Below, piece after piece: positions 2,213-9,817 of a stretch of 64,000 nt of DNA (position 1 is its first letter; each line of letters starts with the position of its first letter). The notes under the pieces are model-generated. The model had not been told where the DNA came from. It saw nothing but the letters and a program-made list of their open reading frames with translations, and searched no databases. The stretch is from Acidobacteriota bacterium. GTDB lineage: Bacteria > Acidobacteriota > Terriglobia > Terriglobales > SCQP01. Location: positions 1 through 64,000 of the forward strand of contig JAJYIU010000008.1 in the NCBI GenBank assembly GCA_021789895.1, written 5' to 3'. A program made the translations under genes and the position numbers.

Positions 2213-3148
2213 CTATGAACCCAGCCGCTCGCCCGGCGCGAGGCGGGCGCCGCGCAAAAATTCCTCGCCGCTGAGCGGCTTGCGCCCTTCCAGTTGCACT
2301 TCCAGCAATTGCAATACGCCCGGCGCGCAGGCGACGGACATGAGTTTCGCCTCCGGCAGCAGCGTGCCCGGGGGCGCGGGCGCATCCGCTTCGGCAAGGA
2401 TCCGGCAACGATGGATGCTCAGCCGCTCGCCGCGCAAGAAGGTATAGAGTCCCGGCCAGGGTTGAAATCCGCGCCAATGGTTGTAAAGTTCCCGCGCCGG
2501 CCGCTGCCAGTCCGCCAGCCCGTCTTCCTTTTTCAAGCGCGGGGCGAGCGACGCCTGGGAATCGTCCTGGGGAATGCTCGAAAGCCGGGCTTGCGCCAAA
2601 CCGAGCAGCGTTTCGGCCAGCAGCTCGGCGGCGAGGACGGCCAGGCGGCGGCTCAGCTCGGGCGCGGTTTCCTCCTCGCCGATGGACAAGCGGCGTTGCA
2701 GCAGCATGTCGCCGGTATCCATGCCGGCGTTGATGCGCATCGTGGTCACGCCAGTCTCGCGTTCTCCACGCGCCAGCGCCCATTGAATCGGCGCCGCGCC
2801 GCGGTAGCGCGGCAGCAGCGAGGCGTGGGCGTTGATCGCTCCCAGCCGGGGCAGCTCGAACACCCGCGGCGGCAGCAGTTGACCGTAGGCCACCACCGCC
2901 AGCGCCTCCGGCTGCCTTGCCGCCAGCCATTGCAGCCCGTCATCGCCGCGAATCTTTTCCGGCTGGAAAACTTCCAGCCCCAGCCGCAGCGCCGCCTGCT
3001 TCACCGCCGGCGATTGCAGCGCCCCGCCGCGGCCGGCGGGCCGATCCGGCTGGCAGACCACGGCCCGCAGCCGCAGCCCCGGGGTGGCGGCCAGGCGCTC
3101 CAGCGCGGGCACGGCGAATGCCGGCGTGCCGAGAAAGATAACGTCCAC
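2213..3148 (-). CDS. fmt: methionyl-tRNA formyltransferase
   Basis: Formylates Met-tRNA(fMet) with 10-formyl-THF to make the bacterial initiator tRNA. The 311-residue protein starts VDVIFLGTPAFAVPALERL, then QPDRPAGRGG, VVAYGQLLPP, and the catalytic segment INAHASLLPRYRGAAPIQWA (Asn-His plus SLLP motif), followed by GVTTMRINAGMDTGDM and the C-terminal OB-like domain. The length matches the family. The GTG at 3148 is chosen because homology begins there; the longer frame to 3229 is Arg/Ala-rich low-complexity sequence. No def gene adjoins it, unlike many genomes. Its first 31 codons and leader are repeated at 4466-4596 on the far side of an AT-rich insert. Confidence 0.95.
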   Translation of the reverse strand: MDVIFLGTPAFAVPALERLAATPGLRLRAVVCQPDRPAGRGGALQSPAVKQAALRLGLEVFQPEKIRGDDGLQWLAARQPEALAVVAYGQLLPPRVFELPRLGAINAHASLLPRYRGAAPIQWALARGERETGVTTMRINAGMDTGDMLLQRRLSIGEEETAPELSRRLAVLAAELLAETLLGLAQARLSSIPQDDSQASLAPRLKKEDGLADWQRPARELYNHWRGFQPWPGLYTFLRGERLSIHRCRILAEADAPAPPGTLLPEAKLMSVACAPGVLQLLEVQLEGRKPLSGEEFLRGARLAPGERLGS

Positions 3149-3192
3149 ACTGCGATTGTAGGCCGCGGCGCGGCAGCGCGCGGCGGCGCGGC
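3056..3192. repeat. direct repeat R1, left copy (fmt 5' end and leader)
   Basis: 137 bases covering the first 31 codons of fmt plus 44 bases upstream. They recur in the same orientation at 4466-4596. By eye the only difference is a 6-base indel (one CCGCAG unit present here, absent in the right copy). The matching ends inside the fmt codons for RAVV, where the right copy diverges abruptly. The two copies bracket an AT-rich two-gene insert. Confidence 0.9.
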
Positions 3193-3201
3193 GGCGGTTG
3201 G

Positions 3202-3225
3202 GGCCGGCGGCATGCAACCTCCGGC
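3202..3225. repeat. short direct repeat R2, left copy
   Basis: GGCCGGCG, one extra G, then CATGCAACCTCCGGC. The same 23 bases without the extra G occur at 6319-6341, where they span the start codon and first codons (MQPPA) of the BioF2-type gene. Here the copy stands alone and its frame stops after nine codons (MQPPAHAYS). It probably marks the original fmt/BioF2-gene junction. Confidence 0.6.
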
Positions 3226-3285
3226 TCACGCTTACTCGTGAAAGCAGCTACGCTTCTTCCTGCTATCATTCATGATTTAAATTCA

Positions 3286-3822
3286 TTAAAAATGAATTAA
3301 CAATTTCTCTTCCTTAGTTTCTAATGACGCTAAAAGTTTCTTCACGTTTTCGATGCCGCTTTCCATCAGTGCGCGGTCAAGCTCATCCTGCGTTCGCACC
3401 GAATAGAAATCTTTTTTGGGATCAATATAGAGCAACACTATTTTATGAATCCCTATAAGATTGATGACATTTTTTAATGTTCCTTTGCTGATACCATCCC
3501 AAATCATAAAGCCACAGCTTGCATCCTTCGCCATGGCCAAGTCTTTTACTTCATAATAAGTTCGGCCATGCCGAATGCCCCGCGCGGCTCTATGCATCAA
3601 GGTATTCCAATTGCCGATATTATTCCGGCATACGCCCATGCAATATATATGCACTGGCTGATATTTGTGAGCAGCCAAATACCGCTGTACTGCTTTATCG
3701 ATTCCGTTCGCATCGCCAATGAGTACGGTTAAATTTTGCTTCATGATATTGTCCAAACGTTCCCTTACTTGTGCGTTTAGTTTCGATAATGAACGCGACC
3801 CGGCAATAAAGACTGATTGCAT
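3286..3822 (-). CDS. SLOG-superfamily (YspA/DprA-like) Rossmann protein in AT-rich insert
   Basis: 178 residues. The N-terminus SVFIAGSRSL and the following VLIGDANGIDKAVQRY (residues about 33-48) match the two nucleotide-binding signatures of the SLOG/YspA (DUF2493-like) fold: a Gly-Ser-Arg loop and a G-D-A-x-G-x-D helix start. Known SLOG proteins bind or process nucleotides or nucleotide-derived ligands and occur in conflict and signalling systems; the ligand here is unknown. The ATG at 3822 follows the phosphoribosyltransferase stop by two bases, with GAGG 8 bases upstream; a TTG at 3828 would overlap that stop. Base composition is far more AT-rich than the surrounding genes, a sign of recent acquisition. 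Family assignment is by motif only. Confidence 0.75.
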   Translation of the reverse strand: MQSVFIAGSRSLSKLNAQVRERLDNIMKQNLTVLIGDANGIDKAVQRYLAAHKYQPVHIYCMGVCRNNIGNWNTLMHRAARGIRHGRTYYEVKDLAMAKDASCGFMIWDGISKGTLKNVINLIGIHKIVLLYIDPKKDFYSVRTQDELDRALMESGIENVKKLLASLETKEEKLLIHF

Positions 3823-3824
3823 AT

Positions 3825-4406
3825 TCAATTCCTCGTACGGGTTAATGCAAGCACATGAACTGCTTGCACGCGTCCTTGAAGCTTTAGAATTTTGGCCGCC
3901 ACATTCAGGGTTGCGCCTGATTGCAGCAGGTCGTCGAGAAGTAGTGCCGTTTTGTCTGCAAGGGTTTCGTTGCTGGCGAATGTCGCCTCTAACGCGTTCA
4001 CGCGTGCTGAGAAGTCGCGGATATCCTTCATCTGCGGCGTCGTTTTCATCTTAATTAATGCTTCTGTATTCAAAACGATATCGAGCGATTGCGCCAATGC
4101 CCTTGCAAGCTCGAATACCGGCTGGAAACTCCTAAATTTCGAAGGTGGTATGGGGACAATGACATCGGGATGGATGCCCCAAGTTTTCAAAAATGCTTCT
4201 ACCGCCTCGATAATTGGGACAATGGCAGCCTTATTATTCTTATACTTTAATTGATAAACGAGTTCTCCTAATTGTGATCGCACTATATCGAATTCGGGAT
4301 GTCCAAATTCGTTAAACCCAATCATGGTGCTTGAAACCGTATGCACGTCCAGGACATACCCTTCATCCCAGGAACCTGCGATTTTTTTGGGGTGGATTTC
4401 GAGCAT
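3825..4406 (-). CDS. ComF-like phosphoribosyltransferase in AT-rich insert
   Basis: 193 residues. The PRPP-binding loop is ALLLDDLLQSGAT (residues about 154-166), the two-acid-then-TGAT pattern of type I phosphoribosyltransferases with SGAT in place of TGAT. DVIVPIPPSKFRSFQPVFEL (81-100) matches the ComF-type segment that usually reads VPVP...R...GFNQ. The N-terminal 60 residues (ending VYQLKYKNNK) fit the short ComF lead-in. No zinc finger is present, unlike competence ComF. It is the first gene of a two-gene unit with the SLOG protein, both AT-rich. A nucleotide-metabolising pair is implied; substrate unknown. No clear ribosome binding site precedes the ATG. Confidence 0.8.
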   Translation of the reverse strand: MLEIHPKKIAGSWDEGYVLDVHTVSSTMIGFNEFGHPEFDIVRSQLGELVYQLKYKNNKAAIVPIIEAVEAFLKTWGIHPDVIVPIPPSKFRSFQPVFELARALAQSLDIVLNTEALIKMKTTPQMKDIRDFSARVNALEATFASNETLADKTALLLDDLLQSGATLNVAAKILKLQGRVQAVHVLALTRTRN

Positions 4407-4415
4407 AAATATTTT

Positions 4416-4444
4416 TACATATTATTCCATGCGCAACTGATCAA
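4416..4444 (-). promoter_or_regulatory. candidate promoter of the PRTase-SLOG pair
   Basis: On the minus strand TTGATC and TATGTA are 17 bases apart, and the -10 ends 9 bases before the ATG at 4406. If used, transcription would start almost at the start codon, giving a leaderless mRNA, consistent with the missing ribosome binding site. The match is only moderate and the region is AT-rich, so chance is possible. Confidence 0.3.
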
Positions 4445-4465
4445 TCGCATTACGTCATAGCGATG

Positions 4466-4596
4466 GACCACGGCCCGCAGCCCCGGGGTGGCGGCCAGGC
4501 GCTCCAGCGCGGGCACGGCGAATGCCGGCGTGCCGAGAAAGATAACGTCCACACTGCGATTGTAGGCCGCGGCGCGGCAGCGCGCGGCGGCGCGGC
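4466..4596. repeat. direct repeat R1, right copy (fmt 5' fragment)
   Basis: 131 bases repeating 3056-3192 with one 6-base deletion. It encodes on the minus strand, from a GTG at 4552, the fmt beginning VDVIFLGTPAFAVPALERL..TPGLRAVV, then switches to unrelated HRYDVM. It is therefore a pseudogene-like fmt stub, not a functional gene. It borders the AT-rich insert on one side and the amidase 3' end on the other. Confidence 0.9.
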
Positions 4597-4643
4597 AGTT
4601 AGGGCGGAAGCGATGACCTGGCCGGCATTGGCCCGCGCTGGCT

Positions 4644-6176
4644 TCAGCCGCCGTAGCCGGCGGGCGCGCTGAACCCACCGATGTCTTCGCTAAAGAGCCG
4701 GGCAAACTCGATCGGCGTGGCGTCTTCCCAGTAGGGACCCATGATCTGCAACCCCACCGGCAGCCGGGAGGAGGACTGGCCGATCGGCATCGCGGTCGCG
4801 GGACAGCCGGTCAATGTTGCCGTCACCATCCACGGCATCATCTGCATATAAGGGCGATTGCCGGCGGGCGTTGGAATCACCCTGCTGAACAGGTCGCCCT
4901 GATGGTCGTGCGGAAAGGCAACGGTAAAGCTCGCCGGCATCAGGAATAGATCGAACTGCTCGAAATATCTTTGCCAAATCGCGCGGTAGAAAAGCTGCCG
5001 GAAATGCAATTGCTGCCAGTCTGCATAGGAAATGAGCGCGCCGGCTGCAACGGGATGCTTCGGATTTTTCCGAAATATCGCCCGATCCCTGGCCTGTGCT
5101 GCCGCGCCTTCTGTACTGAAGTTGAACGCGTCGAGCAAGAGTAAATAAATTCTAGAGGCTTCGCCCAGATCGTAGCCCGGCGGCCAACCCTGCGCGAGCT
5201 TTGCCCCGGCGCGTTCGAGCGCCCGTAACGCCCGTTCCAGCACCGGCTGCACTTCTGTCGTCGGTTCCGCCATGGAACTTTCGAACATATACCCGATGCG
5301 AAACCCCTTGAGCGCGCGCTTGCGCGGAGGCGGCAGGTTCCAGGTCCATGCCTTGCGCCGATAGCCGTTGGGACCGCCCAGCACCGTGAGCGCCGCCATC
5401 AGATCTCGCGCACTCCGGGCCAGCGGGCCGGCGACCGCGAGTCCGGTCGTGAAACCGGGCAAACCCGGCGCGCCCCCGGGAACCTGGCCGTTCAGGCTGA
5501 CCAGATCAAGGGTCGGCTTGTGGGAATAAATGCCGCAGAAACTTGCCGGAACTCGCAAAGATCCACCGATGTCGCTGCCGAGACTGAGATAGGCGAGTCC
5601 GGCGGCCAGCGCCGCGGCGCTTCCGCCTGAGGATCCTCCCGGGGTGCGAGCCAGGTCCCAGGGATTATTCGTGGTTCCATAAATGTCGTTATAGCTTTGC
5701 CAATCCATTAAATTCAGCGGCACATTGGTCCCCCCGAGCAAAATGGCGCCGCTCTGCAATAGGCGTTGGACGGCGACGGCATTGGCGGGCGCTCTGGTGT
5801 TTTTAAAAGCGACGATTCCCCAGGTATCGGGCTCGCCTTGAACGGCGAAGGATTCTTTTACGCAGATCGGCACCCCATGGAAGGGGCCCAATCGAACGCC
5901 GCGCGCGAGCGCCGCATCGGTTTGCCGGGCCTGCGCCAGCGCCCGCTCCCGCATCAAGTAAACGAACGCGTTCAATTGCGGATTGTAGCGCTCGATGCGG
6001 GCAAGCATGTGCCGCGTCAACTCAAGCGAGGAAACGCGCTTGGCGCGGATTGCGGCGGCAGCATCGAGCGCCGGAATAAAATCCAGACCGGCGCCGGCGG
6101 GGGCCGAAAAAGCTTCGGGAATCGGCCCTGCCGCCGCCAGCGTGCCGGCGGAAATCAGCAACTCACGGCGAGTCAT
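4644..6176 (-). CDS. exported amidase-signature hydrolase
   Basis: 510 residues of the amidase-signature family (GatA/fatty acid amide hydrolase relatives). The Ser-cisSer-Lys triad is visible: Lys in GVPICVKESF, the Gly/Ser-rich core TPGGSSGGSAAALAAG, and GSDIGGSLRVPA. The N-terminus MTRRELLISAGTLAAAG is a twin-arginine signal, so the folded enzyme is exported. GatA is cytosolic, and no gatB or gatC is nearby, so this is a catabolic or cell-wall amidase rather than the tRNA amidotransferase. It is somewhat less GC-rich than its neighbours and sits between repeat copies R1 (4466-4596) and R2 (6319-6341), suggesting a separate insertion. Confidence 0.88.
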   Translation of the reverse strand: MTRRELLISAGTLAAAGPIPEAFSAPAGAGLDFIPALDAAAAIRAKRVSSLELTRHMLARIERYNPQLNAFVYLMRERALAQARQTDAALARGVRLGPFHGVPICVKESFAVQGEPDTWGIVAFKNTRAPANAVAVQRLLQSGAILLGGTNVPLNLMDWQSYNDIYGTTNNPWDLARTPGGSSGGSAAALAAGLAYLSLGSDIGGSLRVPASFCGIYSHKPTLDLVSLNGQVPGGAPGLPGFTTGLAVAGPLARSARDLMAALTVLGGPNGYRRKAWTWNLPPPRKRALKGFRIGYMFESSMAEPTTEVQPVLERALRALERAGAKLAQGWPPGYDLGEASRIYLLLLDAFNFSTEGAAAQARDRAIFRKNPKHPVAAGALISYADWQQLHFRQLFYRAIWQRYFEQFDLFLMPASFTVAFPHDHQGDLFSRVIPTPAGNRPYMQMMPWMVTATLTGCPATAMPIGQSSSRLPVGLQIMGPYWEDATPIEFARLFSEDIGGFSAPAGYGG

Positions 6177-6318: not shown

Positions 6319-6341
6319 GGCCGGCGCATGCAACCTCCGGC
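6319..6341. repeat. short direct repeat R2, right copy
   Basis: GGCCGGCG directly followed by CATGCAACCTCCGGC, matching 3202-3225 except for one base. Here it forms the start codon and first codons of the BioF2-type gene. See the left copy for the implied junction. Confidence 0.6.
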
Positions 6342-7341: not shown

Positions 7342-8163
7342 GTGGACGCCACTCCAACCACCCCTGAGCCGGAGCTTGGACGCGCCGATATCCATTGCCA
7401 TCTCCTGCCCGGCCTGGATGACGGCGCCCTCGACCTGGAAACCTCGCTCGCCATGGCCCGCATCGCCATCGAGGATGGCACCACCGACCTGGCCGCCACC
7501 CCGCATGCCAACTTCCAGTTCGACTTCTCCCCGGAGCGGAATCGCGAGTTGAAGGCGGAATTGGAAAGCCGCCTGGAAGGCAAGCTGCGCCTGTACCTGG
7601 GCTGCGATTTTCATCTCTCGATCGAGAACATTCAAGACGCCGCCGCTCATTTCGGCAAATACAGCCTGAACGGCGGGCGCTACCTGCTGGTGGAATTTCC
7701 CGACCCGTTTCCCCCGGCCGCCCACGAAGACGGCTTGCGGCAACTGCTCGAAGCCGGCTATGTGCCGGTGCTGACGCATCCCGAGCGCAACCGTGTATTC
7801 CAGAACACGCCCCGGCTGATTGACGATTTCGTGCGCCTGGGCTGCGTGGTGCAGGTGACCGCGGCGGCGTTTTTAGGCGATTGGGGACGCGCCGCGCAAA
7901 AAATGGCGGAAGACCTGCTGCGCCGCGACCTGGTGCATGCGATCGCTTCCGACGGCCATTCGCCACGCGGCCGCGCGCCCCGGCTGGCCGAAGCCGCCGG
8001 CCGGATCGCCCAACTGCGCGAGCTCGGACTGGCCGATGTGCTGAGCTGCGGCAATCCCCAGGCGATGCTGCGCAACCAGGACCTGCCCTATCATCCCCGC
8101 CCGAGCGAGTCCCGCAAAAAGCCCGGCCTGCTGGCCCGCCTCGGCTTCGCCGCGCGCAACTGA
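7342..8163 (+). CDS. CpsB/YwqE-type PHP-domain protein tyrosine phosphatase
   Basis: 273 residues with the PHP metal-site motifs: DIHCHLLPGLDDGA (residues about 16-29), AATPHANFQFD, LGCDFHLS, VLTHPERNRVF and AIASDGHSPRG. This order matches the manganese-dependent CpsB/Wzb-type tyrosine phosphatases that act on the polysaccharide co-polymerase kinase in capsule or exopolysaccharide synthesis. The start is GTG at 7342. The C-terminal 30 residues are basic and Pro-rich. The partner BY-kinase is not in the window. Confidence 0.88.
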   Translation: MDATPTTPEPELGRADIHCHLLPGLDDGALDLETSLAMARIAIEDGTTDLAATPHANFQFDFSPERNRELKAELESRLEGKLRLYLGCDFHLSIENIQDAAAHFGKYSLNGGRYLLVEFPDPFPPAAHEDGLRQLLEAGYVPVLTHPERNRVFQNTPRLIDDFVRLGCVVQVTAAAFLGDWGRAAQKMAEDLLRRDLVHAIASDGHSPRGRAPRLAEAAGRIAQLRELGLADVLSCGNPQAMLRNQDLPYHPRPSESRKKPGLLARLGFAARN

Positions 8164-8323: not shown

Positions 8324-9763
8324 ATGCCGCTTTACGAACCTCCGCGCACGCACCGCCTCCGCCATCTATTATTTTTGCTGCTCGCCGTGGCGCTGGCGGC
8401 GCTGGCGCTGGCCTGGCTGCGGGGCGGGACGCCGCGCGTGCGCGCGGCCTGGCCGCGCGCCGTCGGGCTGCATACCAGGGTCACCATCCAGGCCGCCGCC
8501 GGCATGGGACTCGGCTCCGCGCGGGTATGGTACGAACAGGCCGGCCGCGAAATCCCGGTCTGGCAGCGGCGCTGGAACGGGCGCCGGTGGTGGCTCTCGG
8601 CGCAGCCGCGCCAGGCGAGGCTGGCGCTCGCCCTCGGCCGCGGCGACGTGCCGGGCTTGCACGACGGCCCAGCCACGCTGGTGGTGCGCGTCAGCGCCGC
8701 CAATCTGCGCCACTCGAGCCTGACCCTGCGGCGCCCGGTGGTGGTCCGCTCCCGCCCGCCCAGCATCACCGCGCTGACAGCCCAGCAGTACATCGTGCAG
8801 GGCGGCGCCGAATTGGTGGTCTATCGCGTTTCTCCCGGCGTGGCGCGCTCCGGGGTGAGCCTGGGCGGCGTCTTTTTCTCCGGACATCACCTGCCCGGCG
8901 CCCCGGACGGCACCGATTTTTGTCTGTTCGCCTACCCGTACAATGCCCGGCCGCCGCTTGCGGCGCGGCTCGAGGCGGTGGATGACGCCGGCAACCGCGC
9001 CCAGGCGGCGTTCCCCTTGCACGCCTTCCCGCAGCATTTTCGCCAGCGCCCGCCGTTCGTCCTGACCCGGGCGATGCTGCAGCGCCTGGTGCCGCCGATT
9101 CTCGCGCACGCGCCCGGGCTCAAGCCCGGCCCCAGCCTGGCCGCGAACTTTACCTTGATTGACCAGACGCTGGCGCAGCAGCAATTGCAGCAGTTGCGCC
9201 TGCTCAGCCGGCACAGCCGCCACAGCTTTCTCTGGCGCGGGGCGTTTGTGCCGCTGCCGCATGCCAAGCTCGAGGCCCGCTTCGCCGACTCGCGCCAGTT
9301 CGTCTATCACGGCCGGGTGCTCACCCGCGAAGTCCATCTCGGCGACGACCTCGCCTCGGTGGCGCACACGCCCATTCCCGCCGCCAATGCCGGGCGGGTG
9401 ATGCTGGCCGGCTATTTCGGCATTTTCGGCAATACCGTCGTGCTCGACCACGGCTACGGCCTGATGACGCTCTACGGCCACATGAACGATTTCGCCGTCC
9501 AGGTGGGGCAATCGGTGGTGAAGGGGCAAACCCTCGGCCACAGCGACTCGACCGGCCTGGCGCTGGGCGACCATGTGCACTTCAGCGTGCTGGTGGATGG
9601 CATCATGGTCAATCCGCTCGAGTGGTGGGATCCGCGCTGGCTGCAGGCGCACCTCTGGCGCAAGCTGGCGCAGTACGGCAACACCCAAACCCAGCCGGGA
9701 ACAAGCCCCCCCGCGGCCCCTGCCGCCGCCCGCGCCGCGGCGGGATCACGCCCCCCGGCTTGA
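8324..9763 (+). CDS. membrane-anchored M23-family metalloendopeptidase
   Basis: 479 residues. An N-terminal hydrophobic helix (LLFLLLAVALAALALAWL, about 15-32) anchors a periplasmic protein. The C-terminal LytM/M23 domain has the zinc ligands: REVHLGDDLAS (His and Asp), then LGDHVHFSVLVDG with the HxH motif, and between them GIFGNTVVLDHGYGLMTLYG and QTLGHSDSTG. The middle domain (residues about 50-300) is a beta-rich region without a recognised family. M23 enzymes cut peptidoglycan cross-links. The tail is Pro/Ala-rich. Nearby are polysaccharide genes, but a 160-base gap separates it from them. Confidence 0.88.
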   Translation: MPLYEPPRTHRLRHLLFLLLAVALAALALAWLRGGTPRVRAAWPRAVGLHTRVTIQAAAGMGLGSARVWYEQAGREIPVWQRRWNGRRWWLSAQPRQARLALALGRGDVPGLHDGPATLVVRVSAANLRHSSLTLRRPVVVRSRPPSITALTAQQYIVQGGAELVVYRVSPGVARSGVSLGGVFFSGHHLPGAPDGTDFCLFAYPYNARPPLAARLEAVDDAGNRAQAAFPLHAFPQHFRQRPPFVLTRAMLQRLVPPILAHAPGLKPGPSLAANFTLIDQTLAQQQLQQLRLLSRHSRHSFLWRGAFVPLPHAKLEARFADSRQFVYHGRVLTREVHLGDDLASVAHTPIPAANAGRVMLAGYFGIFGNTVVLDHGYGLMTLYGHMNDFAVQVGQSVVKGQTLGHSDSTGLALGDHVHFSVLVDGIMVNPLEWWDPRWLQAHLWRKLAQYGNTQTQPGTSPPAAPAAARAAAGSRPPA

Positions 9764-9781
9764 CCCCGCCATGCCGGGGGT

Positions 9782-9817
9782 TGTATAAATATTCATTGGA
9801 TGGTTATTTATTCATTC
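9782..9817 (+). promoter_or_regulatory. paired ARG-box-like operators upstream of argR
   Basis: TGTATAAATATTCATT (9782-9797) and GGTTATTTATTCATTC (9802-9817) each contain the ATTCA half of the ArgR operator (consensus TGAAT-4-ATTCA) in AT-rich sequence. The ATTCA halves are exactly 20 bases apart, near the two-helical-turn spacing of paired ARG boxes. They are a striking AT island 14 bases before argR. Autoregulation and repression of the arg genes is the expected role. Confidence 0.6.

Follow-up and report, generated by a model that had tools for sequence, protein, structure and literature searches.

The AT-rich pair of genes inserted at the start of fmt in this Acidobacteriota genome is probably a minimal, horizontally mobile toxin-antitoxin or defence pair resembling ShosTA, in which a phosphoribosyltransferase (PRTase) would act as the toxin and a SLOG-fold protein as the antitoxin and sensor. 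The pair is mobile and is found again in many bacterial phyla, both on chromosomes and on plasmids and prophages. The toxin-antitoxin part of this reading follows from the precedent of RqlHI and ShosTA, from fusions of SLOG proteins to an antidote-type helix-turn-helix (HTH) domain and from damaged PRTase genes beside intact SLOG genes, while the defence part follows from the position of Escherichia coli copies in a P2 prophage hotspot and from the CBASS-type, toxin-antitoxin (TA) and restriction-modification (R-M) neighbors of plasmid copies. The 64,000-nucleotide stretch of contig JAJYIU010000008.1 that was analyzed is referred to below as the window.

Anatomy and insertion site of the cassette

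Both minus-strand open reading frames (ORFs) described in the first-pass annotation were confirmed, with the PRTase gene upstream and the SLOG gene downstream (Table 1), as was their AT-richness relative to all neighboring genes. The SLOG ATG lies 2 bases past the PRTase stop codon; an alternative in-frame TTG overlapping that stop codon would give a protein of 180 aa, and homologues begin at the ATG. The G+C content is 0.47 for the PRTase gene and 0.42 for the SLOG gene (GC3 0.50 and 0.45, respectively), or 44% for the pair compared to 66% for the window; fmt has 0.70, and all other 1.1-kb stretches of the window have at least 0.57.

Table 1. Features of the cassette and its insertion site (positions in the window).
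Feature	Position	Strand	Details
Gene 1, presumed toxin (PRTase)	3825..4406	-	ATG at 4406, stop 3825-3827, 193 aa
Gene 2, presumed antitoxin/sensor (SLOG)	3286..3822	-	ATG at 3822, 178 aa
AT-rich inserted segment containing both genes	3226..4465	.	Composition, repeat boundaries, comparison with genome G003
Left direct-repeat copy: true fmt 5' end (GTG at 3145) plus 47 nt upstream	3056..3192	.	
Right direct-repeat copy: non-functional fmt 5' fragment, same strand as the PRTase gene and upstream of it	4466..4596	.	
Repeat of 14 nt from the beginning of the divergent GNAT gene (6328-6341), at the left edge of the insert	3212..3225	.	Sequence comparison

As originally noted, the fmt 5' end occurs on both sides of the pair: positions 3071-3192 and 4475-4596 are identical over 122/122 nt, and beyond a 6-nt indel another 17 identical nt precede the repeat (3056-3072 and 4466-4482), with a sequence match for the right copy at 4466-4549. 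The fmt gene is intact from its GTG start and keeps approximately 80 bp of native upstream DNA. The length of the 122-nt repeat is near common assembly k-mer lengths, and the 6-nt difference between the copies argues against a plain assembly artefact. The corresponding interval in a genome from the same genus (G003), between fmt and the divergent GNAT gene, measures approximately 40 bp and contains no cassette and no amidase gene, while in the window the cassette and an amidase gene (PF01425, 4644-6176) both lie there. This comparison, the repeat ends and the copy of the GNAT start together place the insert at 3226-4465, leaving the boundaries as first drawn. The recurrence of 14 nt of the GNAT start at the left boundary means that part of the ancestral intergenic region was duplicated with the insertion. 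As the amidase gene is also absent from the G003 locus, the region between fmt and the GNAT gene has received either at least two insertions or a single compound one.

The duplicated region upstream of fmt could drive expression of the cassette. A further minus-strand ORF at 4415-4705 is spurious and represents the duplicated fmt 5' fragment continuing into the cassette. The G003 pair (locus L034) also has a stretch of duplicated host DNA next to it: 53 nt from within a YceI-like gene recur exactly, immediately upstream of the pair (7875-7927 and 9750-9802). Together with the 137-bp fmt repeat, this makes two such cases in the genus. Long flanking direct repeats were considered as a general trait of the cassette and rejected, because they were found at 6 of 57 loci compared to 26 of 570 random control intervals.

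Folds of the two proteins and the SLOG C-terminus

The first protein, 193 aa long, is a single-domain type I PRTase whose PRPP loop reads LLLDDLLQSGATL. It keeps every position that is invariant among the 17 family members, including R92, K127, D158, D159 and G164; in the family alignment the PRPP loop (DD and G), R92 and K127 are invariant. Its AlphaFold model (pLDDT 92.7) gave Z scores of 15.1 against Helicobacter pylori ComF (7p0h) and 12.3 against ShosT (8zvc; 164 residues aligned, rmsd 3.2). The best profile match among the PADLOC models was PsyrT (2.3e-18), with ShosT at 1.6e-8, and other PRTases of the family also match these two models; ShosT was absent among the best 60 of 77 matches of the PRTase profile to PDB sequences. 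The earlier description of the protein as a ComF-like PRTase therefore holds at the superfamily level but not for the ComF subfamily, since its score against TIGR00201 (50.2 bits) is far below the cutoff of 233.55.

The second protein has a Rossmann-like SLOG fold, and its AlphaFold model has a pLDDT of 91.4 with the last 10 residues disordered. The best Foldseek match was ShosA (8zva, E 1.8e-4), followed by H. pylori DprA. By VIA, the Z score to ShosA was 11.8 over 146 residues, compared to a best score of 13.3 and scores of 11-13 for other SLOG proteins, including about 12-13 for TM1055, a MoCo carrier, YpsA, DprA and LOG; the model also matches ThsA-type SLOG folds. Because this measure does not set ShosA apart from other SLOG folds, the fold can be called SLOG but not specifically ShosA. 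Against the PADLOC ShosA/PsyrA models the window protein was marginal (0.043), while a relative (L021) matched the ShosA model at 3.6e-6, and a search of PDB sequences with the SLOG profile did not find ShosA. The SLOG half of the initial "SLOG/YspA-like" label was thus borne out, but the YspA half was not: PF10686 (YspA/YAcAr) scored 16 bits, below its gathering score of 28.2, and the best Foldseek matches were ShosA and then DprA. The family-invariant positions are GDA-G-D...Q, R-N-W, KD and G-W-S-G-K. Proteins of the SLOG superfamily generally bind nucleotides.

Some members of the family extend beyond the SLOG domain. SLOG proteins from Agrobacterium and Xanthomonas carry a C-terminal "addiction module antidote" HTH domain (PF21716; 1.6e-21 and 7.5e-23), further members are annotated as HTH/XRE fusions, and the HTH fusions fall in two separate clades of the tree. 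Many members end in tails resembling the motif that binds the sliding clamp, such as QIRLF, QVSLF and QIKLF, and the E. coli prophage copy ends in EQIQMFM. In three related genomes (L052, L053 and L054), PRTase fragments accompany an intact SLOG protein with the clamp-like tail EQMSLY or EQMTLY. The beta-clamp-binding motif has been described as Q-aliphatic-x-[LM]-[FL] or Q-aliphatic-x-[LM]-x-[FL] (PMC11139829). This published motif was found in 8 of 41 distinct tails (1.0 expected; maximum of 6 in 5000 shuffles) and once in 6963 residues of SLOG bodies, while a post hoc pattern chosen after seeing the tails was found in 13 of 41 (0.38 expected) and in 6 of 25 when one representative per 60% identity was kept. 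Related tails were counted separately among the 41, so these counts overstate independence. A clamp-binding tail was rejected for the window protein itself, whose terminus (EEKLLIHF) is degenerate and lacks the consensus. It can tentatively be suggested from these motifs that the short SLOG proteins are a class of antitoxin or sensor in their own right, docking on the sliding clamp through the C-terminal tail, with the PRTase held at the replication fork and released when the fork is disturbed. If true, clamp docking would be a way for PRTase-DprA systems to sense phage DNA replication, and the tail offers a directly testable hypothesis for how the replication of invading DNA is noticed.

Distribution, genomic context and likely function

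The SLOG gene was present in 2 of the 14 genomes of the family. In the maximum-likelihood tree, the window protein clusters with proteins of two other Acidobacteriota (L015 and L016; support 100/94). The G003 pair lies at a different site and is approximately 50% identical to the window copy; the possibility that the two are orthologs was rejected because they fall in different clades, which indicates that the genus acquired the pair at least twice. The absence of a cassette from the G003 locus, together with the presence of a pair of another clade elsewhere in that genome, indicates that the pair arrived horizontally, so that the horizontal acquisition first proposed is backed by low G+C content, a cassette-free locus and tree placement.

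Homologues of the SLOG protein were found in Acidobacteriota, Pseudomonadota, Bacillota, Spirochaetota, Fusobacteriota, Thermodesulfobacteriota and Cyanobacteriota, those of the last phylum being distant and unpaired. When both genes are present, they are on the same strand with the PRTase gene first and a gap of about -10 to +14 nt, and this recurrence as adjacent genes in constant order across phyla supports the view that they form a conserved pair. Prevalence among sampled species was 11/376 in the phylum of the window, 6/388 in the Bacillota sample, 7/388 in the phylum of the proteobacterial genome L017 and 2/247 in the Spirochaetota sample, counts that include the centre genomes. Among plasmid records, 97 contained the SLOG gene and 63 the PRTase gene at E 1e-5, and 55 of the 97 SLOG-bearing records were conjugative. 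The pair was matched in 33 of 5426 E. coli genomes (27 chromosomal and 6 plasmid), with at least 80% of the query covered in 21. No matches were found in IMG/VR contigs or INPHARED phage records, which indicates that the family is atypical of catalogued free phages despite the copies in P2-like prophages of E. coli. A diverged branch of SLOG proteins on rhizobial plasmids (L070, L078, L079 and L080; approximately 3492-4028) lies near DUF2493 and DUF736 genes without a PRTase gene. Cyanobacterial plasmids likewise carry 122-aa SLOG relatives without a PRTase gene (L074, 3513-3878; L077, 3492-3860), with more DUF1273- or SLOG-annotated genes nearby.

The E. coli copies (L087 and L089) lie between the portal and replication endonuclease genes of P2-like prophages. 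According to Rousset et al. (PMC9122126), the interval between gpQ and gpA of P2 is a hotspot for anti-phage systems, and the systems found there include a DprA and PRTase pair active against T7 and lambda, which could be either the long ShosTA or the short form. In one E. coli prophage (L087, 9870-11653), genes with a RelA/SpoT domain and of the ParA family adjoin the pair within the hotspot and have weak matches to candidate defence families. Neighbors of plasmid copies include CBASS-type genes, ParDE, VapC and other TA genes, R-M genes and partition genes. The window copy is set among housekeeping genes with no mobile genes alongside, and ten ORFs tested from the first 21 kb of the window gave no sign of a defence island. 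Among the functions initially considered, an anti-phage module is favored by the ShosT and ShosA fold matches, the P2 defence hotspot and the TA context of plasmid copies.

The PRTase gene is damaged beside an intact SLOG gene at seven loci (L015, L019, L026, L052-L054 and L068), with an IS3 gene upstream of the shortened PRTase ORF at L068. At L085, a PRTase-seeded locus, the PRTase match ends at model position 152 and is followed by an IS1 gene, with no SLOG gene left. Since loci were mostly seeded with the SLOG protein, the asymmetry between damaged PRTase and intact SLOG genes is biased, and as evidence for a toxin-antitoxin relationship it is suggestive only. Precedent comes from RqlHI, in which the PRTase domain of RqlH is toxic, the PRPP-pocket mutation D663A relieves this toxicity, and RqlI, which has a C-terminal HTH, neutralizes it (PMC4670107). 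In ShosTA, according to PMC12593503 (citing Pu et al. 2025), ShosT perturbs purine metabolism and ShosA opposes this effect; PMC9122126 is a further source for ShosTA as a toxin-antitoxin pair. By analogy, the PRTase of the present pair would be a toxin whose DD-x(3)-SG-x-T loop binds PRPP. Freed from its partner, it would upset purine and PRPP metabolism and thereby DNA replication, the effect reported for ShosT and RqlH. The SLOG protein, translated directly after the toxin, would serve as antitoxin and sensor by holding the PRTase inactive, and the enzyme may be set free when a phage infects, replication is under stress or the element is lost, with cell arrest or death as the outcome.

There are several other potential explanations for the pair. 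It is possible, though doubtful, that it is mainly an addiction module of plasmids and prophages, in which loss of the element leads to poisoning by a longer-lived PRTase and defence is secondary or absent. The conjugative nature of more than half of the SLOG-bearing plasmid records, the location of several copies beside ParA, ParB or ParG genes and the antidote HTH fusions are in line with this explanation; however, the pair is also chromosomal in 1-3% of sampled species, the window copy has no mobile genes alongside, and the E. coli copies occupy a prophage hotspot in which anti-phage systems have been found. It is unlikely that the two genes form a nucleotide-signalling system of activator and effector, in which the SLOG protein makes or binds a ligand that switches the PRTase on, with both proteins needed and neither toxic alone. 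Nucleotide binding is general in the SLOG superfamily and the model matches LOG and ThsA-type folds, but recurrent damage to the PRTase beside an intact SLOG gene, the antidote HTH fusions and the toxin-antitoxin action of the studied relatives RqlHI and ShosTA all speak against such an arrangement. A metabolic pair for nucleotide salvage or competence with no conflict role is very improbable even though ComF-like and DprA-like folds are both part of the competence vocabulary, given the patchy distribution within the family, the mobile contexts, the second, weaker match (probably the housekeeping ComF) that most of eleven tested genomes have elsewhere, and the absence of salvage genes beside the copies inspected, which leaves the NAD or nucleotide salvage option of the first-pass annotation unsupported.

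Comparison with known systems

Three systems that join a PRTase to a DprA/SLOG protein, namely shosTA, syrTA and rqlHI, are already on record (PMC9122126). The individual proteins also resemble other families. The PRTase shares the fold (Z 15.1 to 7p0h) and PRPP motif of ComF/GntX PRTases but falls far under the family cutoffs and is paired with a SLOG protein. Similarly, the SLOG protein shares its Rossmann-like fold (Z 12-13) with DprA, YpsA, LOG and YspA/YAcAr, but reaches no family cutoff and has a motif of its own, GDANG-D...RNN-G-W...KD...G-W-S-G.

Compared to PsyrTA and RqlHI, the PRTase matches the last approximately 150 residues of PsyrT (538-685 of 689, at the 2.3e-18 given above), and the partner is likewise a presumed antitoxin of the SLOG/DprA type with a C-terminal HTH in some members. 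However, the RecQ-like helicase is missing, leaving a free-standing PRTase of 193 aa, and the window SLOG protein has no HTH. The likeness to ShosTA lies in a PRTase gene directly adjoining a DprA/SLOG-fold gene on the same strand, in a PRTase domain with the ShosT fold (Z 12.3, 164 residues) and a SLOG domain with the ShosA fold (Z 11.8, 146 residues), and in the report of a DprA and PRTase pair from the P2 hotspot. The two pairs differ in that sequence similarity between the window SLOG protein and ShosA is marginal and in that the present proteins align only to residues 160-364 of ShosT and 130-293 of ShosA. Both N-terminal regions are therefore absent: full-length ShosT has approximately 160 residues before the PRTase domain and ShosA approximately 130 before the SLOG domain, which the window proteins of 193 and 178 aa lack.

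No description of the minimal two-gene form was found in the searchable literature. As the PRTase scores as PsyrT or ShosT while the SLOG protein scores near or below significance, current models will probably miss complete pairs. With natural copies in E. coli, the minimal pair would be a convenient system in which to examine the effect on purine pools, sensing by the SLOG protein and restraint of the enzyme. In summary, the pair is most likely a pared-down relative of ShosTA and RqlHI rather than ShosTA proper, since it has neither the long N-terminal regions nor the helicase; the PRTase-DprA defence theme would here be reduced to two single-domain proteins of approximately 190 and 180 residues, a known kind of system whose minimal form and clamp-like tail are new as far as the searchable literature shows.
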